In this document: positions 58,758-60,577 of the stretch, one piece after another
Layout of the letters: each line of letters begins with the position of its first letter
How positions within the stretch are numbered: position 1 is the first letter of the stretch
Source: Aminomonas paucivorans DSM 12260
GTDB taxonomy: Bacteria; Synergistota; Synergistia; Synergistales; Synergistaceae
Reading direction: 5' to 3'
Assembly (NCBI RefSeq): GCF_000165795.1
Contig: NZ_CM001022.1
Coordinates: 1,397,812-1,461,811 of the forward strand
Length of the DNA: 64,000 nt
Made by a program: the position numbers and the translations under genes
Notes under the pieces: generated by a model
Database searches by the model: none
What the model was told of the DNA's origin: nothing
Seen by the model: the letters and a program-made list of their open reading frames with translations, nothing else

Positions 58758-58789
58758 CACGAACCCTCCGAGGGGAGGTGCGCCGCGCC

Positions 58790-60577
58790 GTGTTCTCTCT
58801 AGCTCCCGAGGAGATCCACCTGCTCACCGTCCTGGGGGCCCTGGCGGTGGTGTGCCTTCTGGTCCAGCGGTTCTTCAAACCCTATCTGGAGAGGGACCAG
58901 TATTACTACCTCAAGGACATCACCCTCATCGGCGCCTGGGCACTGTGCGGCATTTGGTCCCAAAGCCCCCTGCTGCGAGCCACCATCACCGCAGGGGTGG
59001 CGGCGGCCCTGCTGGGCTTCTGCCAGCGGGTCCAGAAGAAGTGGGATCTTCGTCCGGGCTTCTGGCTCATCGGCCTGGGCCTCGCCCTGTGGGGCCCGCG
59101 CATCACCTTCTTCGGCCTCCCCCAGGGGGCCTTCCACTACCTGTCCGAAATCCCCTCCCTGCTGGTGAGCGCCTTCTGGATCGGCCTCTTCCCGTGCCTG
59201 TTCCAGGAGATCGACGAGGTCCCCGGCCTGGGGGGAACCCTGCTTGCCGCAGGGTGGACCCTCATGCTGGCGGTGACCCTGTTGGCCTCGGGGGGGTGGA
59301 ACGACGCGGTCTTCGCGTCCCTTACGGGCTTCGTCTTCATCCTGGTTTTCTGGAGTCGCCACATCCACGTCTACCGCCGTCTGGGGGAACCTCTGGCCGC
59401 CCTGTGGGGAACCCTCATGGCGGGCACCGCCATCCTGGGAGTCACCAAGGGGCTGACCTTCTCCACCCTCCTGGTTCTCCCCCTGGGGCTCTTCGCCCTG
59501 CCACTGCTGGAGGCGTCCATCCACCTTCTGAGCACCGCCTTCGCCTCCCGCAGGACGGGCAACCTGGTGCTCTACCGGCTCCTCATCAATCAGGGGGTGG
59601 ACCACCCCACGGCGGTGCACACGGTGACGGCCCTGTGCACCCTCCTGGGTCTCTTCGTGGTCTCCGGACAGATGGGGTTTTCCTCCGTCCCCTTCGTCCT
59701 GGCGGGACTCCTTTTCCTCTGCGTCTCTTCGGTGGTACTCTGGGCCTTCCTCTTCCGGAGGAATCCCCATCCGGAAAGGCGACCCCGAATCTGGGGAGCG
59801 GTGGTGGACAACGTGTCCCTCCACTATGCTCTGGGGAAGGTCCGCAGTTGGGTGGGAGGGGGCGAACCCCACCGCATCTTCACCGTGGACGCCCTGGCGG
59901 CCCTGCGAAGCCGCTCCGATGAGGCCTATCGGGAAGCGGTGGGGGAGGCGGACCTGGTGCTCCCCGACGGCAAGGGGCTGATCTGGGCGTTCCGCTTTCT
60001 GGGAACCCCCATCCAGGAGCGCCTGCCGGGGGTGGAGTTCGTGGAACACCTCTGCCGCCAGGCCTCCGGGGAGGGGTGGCCGGTCTTCTTCCTGGGAGGC
60101 AAGCCGGGGATTGCGGAGAAGGCCGCCCGTGCCCTGGGCGAACGACATCGGGACCTGGTCGTGGCGGGCTGTCGGGACGGCTACTTTCGACCTTCCGAAG
60201 AACCGGAAGTCCTGGAGGCCATCCGCAACAGCGGGGCTCGCGTCCTTTTTCTGGGACTGGGGGTCCCTCGGCAGGAGCTCTGGCTGCACCTCCATGCCCG
60301 CACGGCGCCGGGAAGCCCCGCGGCCCTTCCGGGGATCGTGGGGATGGGAATCGGGGGAAGCATGGATGTCCTCTCCGGGGAGCTGCGTCGAGCCCCCGCG
60401 CTATGGCAACGGTGGGGGATGGAATGGCTCTACCGCACCCTGCAGGAGCCTTGGCGGTGGAAACGGGTGATCCGCCTGCCCCTGTTCGTCCTGCTGGTCC
60501 TCTGGACCCGACTGGTGGGGGATTCGCTTGCTAAGGAACAAGAAGATTCGGGCTCGAACCGACAAGGAGGTTTCTGA
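58790..60577 (+). CDS. Membrane fusion protein: degenerate WecA-like domain plus WecG/TagA glycosyltransferase
   Basis: The 595-residue protein has about eight membrane segments (1-325), whose spacing follows WecA/TagO/MraY. The catalytic motifs are lost: no DD pair; FQEIDEVPGLGG where NxxNxxDGxDGL is expected; LVLYRLL near residue 258 in place of HIHH-LL. The C-terminal part (334-560) is a WecG/TagA/CpsF transferase: LPDGKGLIWAFRFLG, VFFLGGKPGIAEKAA, GCRDGYF and LFLGLGVPRQELWL. It probably adds a sugar to a lipid-linked intermediate at the membrane. GTG 58790 suits AGGGGAGG upstream; GTG 58778 overlaps that site. Confidence 0.8.
   Translation: MFSLAPEEIHLLTVLGALAVVCLLVQRFFKPYLERDQYYYLKDITLIGAWALCGIWSQSPLLRATITAGVAAALLGFCQRVQKKWDLRPGFWLIGLGLALWGPRITFFGLPQGAFHYLSEIPSLLVSAFWIGLFPCLFQEIDEVPGLGGTLLAAGWTLMLAVTLLASGGWNDAVFASLTGFVFILVFWSRHIHVYRRLGEPLAALWGTLMAGTAILGVTKGLTFSTLLVLPLGLFALPLLEASIHLLSTAFASRRTGNLVLYRLLINQGVDHPTAVHTVTALCTLLGLFVVSGQMGFSSVPFVLAGLLFLCVSSVVLWAFLFRRNPHPERRPRIWGAVVDNVSLHYALGKVRSWVGGGEPHRIFTVDALAALRSRSDEAYREAVGEADLVLPDGKGLIWAFRFLGTPIQERLPGVEFVEHLCRQASGEGWPVFFLGGKPGIAEKAARALGERHRDLVVAGCRDGYFRPSEEPEVLEAIRNSGARVLFLGLGVPRQELWLHLHARTAPGSPAALPGIVGMGIGGSMDVLSGELRRAPALWQRWGMEWLYRTLQEPWRWKRVIRLPLFVLLVLWTRLVGDSLAKEQEDSGSNRQGGF

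Follow-up and report, generated by a model that had tools for sequence, protein, structure and literature searches.

The locus

The window analyzed here is the whole stretch of 64,000 nucleotides from positions 1,397,812 to 1,461,811 of contig NZ_CM001022.1 of Aminomonas paucivorans DSM 12260. On its forward strand, between positions 58790 and 60577, a single uninterrupted open reading frame free of frameshifts encodes a protein of 595 amino acids, in which a membrane domain of predicted polyprenyl-phosphate sugar-1-phosphate transferase (PNPT) fold that has lost its catalytic residues precedes a WecG/TagA glycosyltransferase (GT) domain. An alternative GTG at position 58778 would lengthen the N terminus by four codons. 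The GTG at 58790, which was also the choice of the preliminary description, is favored as the start because a Shine-Dalgarno-like sequence stands 11 nucleotides before it. Judging by names read off the translations, the neighboring genes are housekeeping genes: uvrC, ribD/C/BA/H, and serS upstream, and ybaB, recR, a gene for a PIN-domain protein, and ispDF downstream. The features discussed below are as follows, with positions in the window.

58771 to 58778, plus strand: Shine-Dalgarno-like AGGGGAGG, read from the sequence
58790 to 60577, plus strand: pseudo-PNPT::TagA fusion gene, 595 amino acids, start codon GTG at 58790
58790 to 59755, plus strand: pseudo-PNPT domain (residues 1 to 322), ten helices of the MraY fold plus TM11 (residues 300 to 322), predicted to have its N terminus outside and its C terminus inside
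59015 to 59029, plus strand: place of GxxDD, here GFCQR (residues 76 to 80), both Asp lost
59204 to 59227, plus strand: place of NxxDGxDG, here QEIDEVPG (residues 139 to 146), D142 and G146 invariant, second Asp replaced by P145
59354 to 59389, plus strand: place of N...FxGD, here SRHIHVYRRLGE (residues 189 to 200), R190 invariant, Asp replaced by Glu
59564 to 59581, plus strand: place of HxHHR, here LVLYRL (residues 259 to 264), histidines lost, Y262 invariant
59780 to 60505, plus strand: WecG/TagA domain (GT26, GT-E fold; residues 331 to 572), T365, D393, R549, and R556 invariant

The C-terminal glycosyltransferase

Pfam family PF03808 matches residues 387 to 560 with an E-value of 7e-61 (205 bits against a cutoff of 27.4). 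The best solved relative of this half in a PDB sequence search is TagA/TarA of Thermoanaerobacter italicus (E-value of 1e-43), and Foldseek superposes the half on TagA chain 7n41 with a TM-score of 0.95. The catalytic residues of TagA are Thr37, Asp65, Arg214, and Arg221 (PMC6493773); their counterparts here, T365, D393, R549, and R556, are invariant in 54 homologues, so that the GT half is expected from its sequence to be active. The proposal that the C-terminal half keeps the WecG/TagA motifs, made in the preliminary description, is borne out by these matches. The GT domain shares about 30% identity with TagA/TarA of T. italicus and Bacillus subtilis, together with their catalytic residues and C-terminal appendage. 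However, TagA is a stand-alone, peripheral protein that its appendage tethers to the membrane, as seen in B. subtilis (PMC6493773), whereas the fusion has an integral pseudo-PNPT domain with 11 transmembrane (TM) helices in front of its GT. Because the fusion retains the appendage, an extra membrane domain is not obviously needed, which counts against the explanation that we favor below. The fusion scores 135.7 bits against the UDP-ManNAc-specific TarA equivalog NF041710, short of its cutoff of 350; hence, the assignment of ManNAc as the donated sugar rests on pathway context.

The N-terminal half and its predicted PNPT fold

Searches of Pfam, NCBIfam, and PDB sequences with the fusion protein alone left its N-terminal domain undetected, and Pfam gave no match to this half in the fusion protein or in 50 relatives, the cutoff of PF00953 not being reached. 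Weak matches to HisH in the PDB sequence search were rejected as chance. An AlphaFold2 model of residues 1 to 328, based on a 51-sequence alignment, had a pLDDT of 88.8 and a pTM of 0.86. With this model as the query, ranks 1 to 34 in Foldseek were all PNPT chains (MraY or DPAGT1), and the VIA Z-score on MraY/DPAGT1 was 21.3 to 23.4 over 263 to 286 residues, compared with 5.1 for the next unrelated fold. In hhalign, the fusion family aligned in register with TagO (E-value of 2e-4) and WbpL (8e-5) of its own genome, and reversed TagO and WbpL controls gave E-values of 0.2 or worse; the match to the MraY of the same genome was weak and not significant (0.05). Ranked by their PF00953 scores in a genome search, the four orthologous fusions of f11, a deep-branching family of Synergistota (genomes G061, G062, G063, and G064), reach 41.5, 40.1, 37.7, and 27.0 bits (cutoff of 27), and three of the four exceed the cutoff by hmmscan as well (37.2, 36.3, and 32.1 bits).

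These computations show a predicted MraY/WecA/DPAGT1 (PNPT) fold for the N-terminal half. They agree with the PNPT membrane plan that the preliminary description had read from the sequence, for which an unrelated predicted fold had been named as the contrary outcome. The likeness to WecA, TagO, MraY, and DPAGT1 (PF00953) extends across the whole N-terminal domain and, in the f11 orthologues, includes a PF00953 match; in contrast to that superfamily, the fusion lacks the DD pair, the second Asp of DGxDG, and HxHH, and the A. paucivorans protein itself escapes PF00953.

Eleven long helices are present in the model. Helices 1 to 10 match MraY, and helix 11 (residues 300 to 322) lies mostly outside the aligned fold. 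Lysine and arginine residues are more numerous in the odd loops, with the exception of loop 5, and after TM11; this positive-inside count places the N terminus outside and the GT domain inside, on the side of the UDP-sugars. With this support, we infer that the GT domain is cytoplasmic.

Loss of the active site

We compared the active-site columns by aligning the fusions with the live PNPTs of the same genomes, using 54 homologues. Most homologues have Gln-Lys/Arg instead of the DD pair and Ile/Leu and Gln instead of both Asn residues in NxxNxx. Pro replaces the second DGxDG Asp in 46 of the 54, and HxHH is absent. Neither the 54 homologues nor the f11 fusions retain DD, the second DGxDG Asp, or HxHH, and the comparison shows that the domain no longer has the PNPT catalytic residue set. 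The position of the FxGD Asp is occupied by Glu (32/54), Asp (3/54), or other residues (19/54). D142, the first Asp of NxxNxxDGxDG, and G146 are kept throughout (54/54). The preliminary description had every active-site motif replaced; this stands for DD, the second Asp of DGxDG, and HxHH, has to be withdrawn for D142 and G146, and is partly wrong for FxGD. Y40, D43, R190, W206, Y262, and H272 are likewise invariant (54/54), and E241 is found in 53 of the 54 and corresponds to Asn in f11. The enrichment of conserved residues at the old PNPT active-site columns is borderline (P values of 0.05 to 0.3) and does not serve as evidence here. In f11 the site reads NAxSxLDEIKG where live PNPTs have NAxNLxDGxDG and is already dead; therefore, the loss is older than the split of the main lineages of the phylum.

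Distribution, age, and selection

A survey of Synergistota for the fusion, suggested in the preliminary description, found exactly one WecG per genome, always as the pseudo-PNPT fusion, in 47 of 47 complete relatives. Across the phylum, 114 of 116 complete genomes gave a match to the N-terminal domain; of the remaining two, G063 was recovered with a full-length profile, and G106 is represented by a fragmented assembly. Acetomicrobium hydrogeniformans (L167) is among the carriers of the fusion. When GTDB contigs were scanned with an alignment of closer homologues, 52 loci were returned, 50 with the full fusion frame and two cut or broken, all of them in Synergistota, a result that by itself does not show restriction to the phylum.

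Related fusions occur outside Synergistota in two genomes of family f27 (L192 and L193) and one of family f131 (L195). The PNPT motifs are lost in all three, and the f27 and f131 genomes carry a separate PNPT. The N-terminal domains from f27 match the family profile with E-values of 1e-23 to 5e-25, and that of L195 is undetected on its own. In f27 the fusion adjoins a gene of the UDP-glucose/GDP-mannose dehydrogenase family, so its product may differ there; an NAD-dependent epimerase is also encoded among the next genes. The fused GT domains may share one origin, which a p-AU of 0.32 neither rejects nor demonstrates. Other long-frame WecG hits outside the phylum were rejected as pseudo-PNPT fusions, being read-through frames or other fusions. 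Loci L194 and L199 (genomes G200 and G348) have two WecG/TagA domains side by side.

Gene order around the fusion was compared with that in relatives, and serS lies near the fusion gene even in f11, the deepest branch. The dN/dS values of the N-terminal domain range from 0.02 to 0.12 and are lower than those of the GT domain in 8 of the 10 pairs for which they could be computed, showing strong purifying selection on the domain. Together, the status of the fusion as the sole WecG in 47 of 47 genomes, the retained proximity of serS, and the low dN/dS show that the dead state is not of recent date.

Pathway partners

The A. paucivorans genome encodes three ordinary PNPTs, namely, MraY and a WbpL-type enzyme, encoded in a mur and a glycan cluster, respectively, and TagO. 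The tagO gene lies near uppS and dxr and is directly followed by a UDP-GlcNAc 2-epimerase gene (above the cutoff of the wecB equivalog), so that the active wecA/tagO and the epimerase, both marked for a search in the preliminary description, lie next to each other. Directly upstream of tagO (L107:4009-5124, plus strand), one gene combines ribose-5-phosphate isomerase B (PF02502) and uracil phosphoribosyltransferase (PF14681). In most complete relatives the PNPTs number two: an MraY-like enzyme and a TagO-like enzyme, the gene for which lies, by coordinates, near that for the epimerase in most genomes. Every complete relative has separate PNPTs above the PF00953 cutoff, with intact motifs in those that were read. 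PNPTs, UDP-GlcNAc 2-epimerase, and CsaB are each present in 47 of 47 complete relatives; CsaB exceeds its curated cutoff in 42 of 61 genomes and does so in A. paucivorans. At two loci (L189 and L190, from A. paucivorans and G060), the gene immediately upstream of csaB encodes a multihelix membrane protein of about 650 amino acids with VNSFCHxH...LLRVFNG or a similar sequence.

The same enzyme set, present in all complete Synergistota relatives, builds the pyruvylated, SLH-binding secondary cell wall polymer of Paenibacillus alvei (TagO-MnaA-TagA-CsaB), where MnaA, TagA, and CsaB yield a pyruvylated lipid-linked repeat precursor in vitro, the TagA product being pyruvylated at the lipid-linked stage (PMC6030368). 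Synergistota differ in that TagA is fused to a dead PNPT, that tagO-mnaA, the fusion, and csaB are at separate places, and that the host is diderm. Outside Synergistota, genome G307 encodes a 637-amino-acid CsaB (L223:1716-3626, minus strand; TIGR03609, 227.8 bits, above the cutoff) fused to WecG/TagA. This chain unites a pyruvyltransferase with the enzyme making its acceptor, and we count it as gene-fusion support for a CsaB-TagA pathway. A TagO-MnaA-TagA-CsaB pathway in Synergistota, with ManNAc transfer by the fusion, is a well-supported inference from this context.

Synergistetes are among the phyla reported to have SlpA/OmpM-like SLH tethers (PMC9388160). SLH domains (PF00395) are present in A. 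paucivorans and in 38 of 47 complete genomes, and one OmpM-like protein of A. paucivorans (L188:1733-3238, plus strand) has SLH followed by a barrel-like C-terminal part. Its SLH motif is TRYE, not TRAE; TRYE is also found in Veillonella OmpM1, which binds polyaminated peptidoglycan (PMC10628300). As far as the sequence tells, the ligand of the A. paucivorans SLH may be either a pyruvylated polymer or polyaminated peptidoglycan.

Proposed role of the fusion

What could a PNPT contribute that no longer has its catalytic residues? What the evidence supports best is that selection has preserved a dead PNPT ahead of an intact TagA domain, in an apparent core pathway. Beyond this, we consider it fairly probable that the protein is a TagA-type UDP-ManNAc transferase held at the membrane by the dead PNPT, with the latter docking GlcNAc-PP-undecaprenol, pairing with TagO, or both. 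An active TagO, mostly encoded beside the UDP-GlcNAc 2-epimerase, would produce GlcNAc-PP-undecaprenol; the GT domain, anchored to the inner membrane on its cytoplasmic side by the 11 predicted TM helices, would accept it and add ManNAc; and CsaB would pyruvylate the ManNAc, leading to an envelope glycopolymer of the SLH-binding kind. On this reading the pseudo-PNPT domain would be no mere anchor. It probably binds GlcNAc-PP-undecaprenol, the product of its former reaction, and presents it to the attached GT; alternatively or in addition, it probably pairs with the active TagO and so couples the two steps. Solved PNPTs are dimers. A role as a receptor for GlcNAc-PP-undecaprenol or as a partner of TagO would explain the choice of the PNPT fold over any anchor.

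A related solution is known from eukaryotes. In the Alg7-Alg14-Alg13 assembly, a membrane partner holds the second glycosyltransferase beside the first, a PNPT-type enzyme, which is the placement that we propose for the fusion. However, the PNPT of that assembly is active, and its membrane partner, Alg14, does not have the PNPT fold.

A simpler view is that the N-terminal domain is a mere membrane anchor and its fold a leftover without a binding role. The lost catalytic set, the delivery of the GT to the cytoplasm by TM11 and the positive-inside pattern, and the borderline enrichment at the old active-site columns would suit such an anchor, but its dN/dS is as low as that of the GT, and the invariant D43, D142, R190, W206, Y262, and H272 and near-invariant E241 exceed what an anchor needs. 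Moreover, B. subtilis TagA already has its appendage as a tether (PMC6493773). A scaffold or lipid receptor accounts better than a bare anchor for the strong purifying selection and the invariance of polar residues, and we regard the anchor as unlikely.

It is less probable still, and in our view hardly to be expected, that the domain has gained a new activity, such as another reaction on a lipid phosphate or assistance with the transport of the lipid intermediate, by means of D142, R190, E241, and H272. The invariance of charged residues speaks for it, but residues vary at the site of the catalytic FxGD Asp, E241 is Asn in f11, and the Mg-binding DD pair is absent throughout. Some residual chemistry is remotely conceivable, given the invariant D142 and the Glu in place of the FxGD Asp; overall, residual or new catalysis by the domain is unlikely. 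That the domain is a functional PNPT whose active site is atypical, which would make the protein a bifunctional TagO-TagA, is extremely improbable: despite the PNPT fold, the conserved D142 and G146, and an acidic residue at the FxGD position in 35 of 54 homologues, DD, the second Asp, and HxHH are lost in these homologues and in f11, and each complete relative keeps the separate PNPTs noted above.

The scaffold or lipid-receptor reading can be extended to the whole phylum, as a possibility that we put forward tentatively and with some doubt. A dead TagO paralogue would bind lipid-linked GlcNAc and/or heterodimerize with the live TagO and channel the intermediate to the fused TagA, in a pathway that would supply the wall anchor for the outer membrane of Synergistota. 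The tether proposed for this outer membrane is the SLH protein OmpM, and no report of its wall ligand in Synergistota was found in the literature searched.

We found no description of a pseudo-PNPT::TagA fusion in the open literature searched; the preliminary description had likewise known of no protein of this design. Both halves belong to known families, and it is their combination, its universality in the phylum, and the dead first enzyme that appear undescribed in that literature. Profile libraries show the fusions only as WecB/TagA/CpsF glycosyltransferases, and hence the membrane half has been overlooked.

PNPTs start most undecaprenyl-linked glycans. A dead but conserved PNPT joined to the enzyme of the following step would be a sign that this step depends either on a receptor for the lipid made in the first step or on a physical link to that step. 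Our reading suggests that a worn-out enzyme was retained as a holder of the lipid-linked substrate or as a partner of the active first enzyme. Given the distribution of the fusion and its partners, a TagO-TagA-CsaB route may well be universal in the diderm Synergistota.
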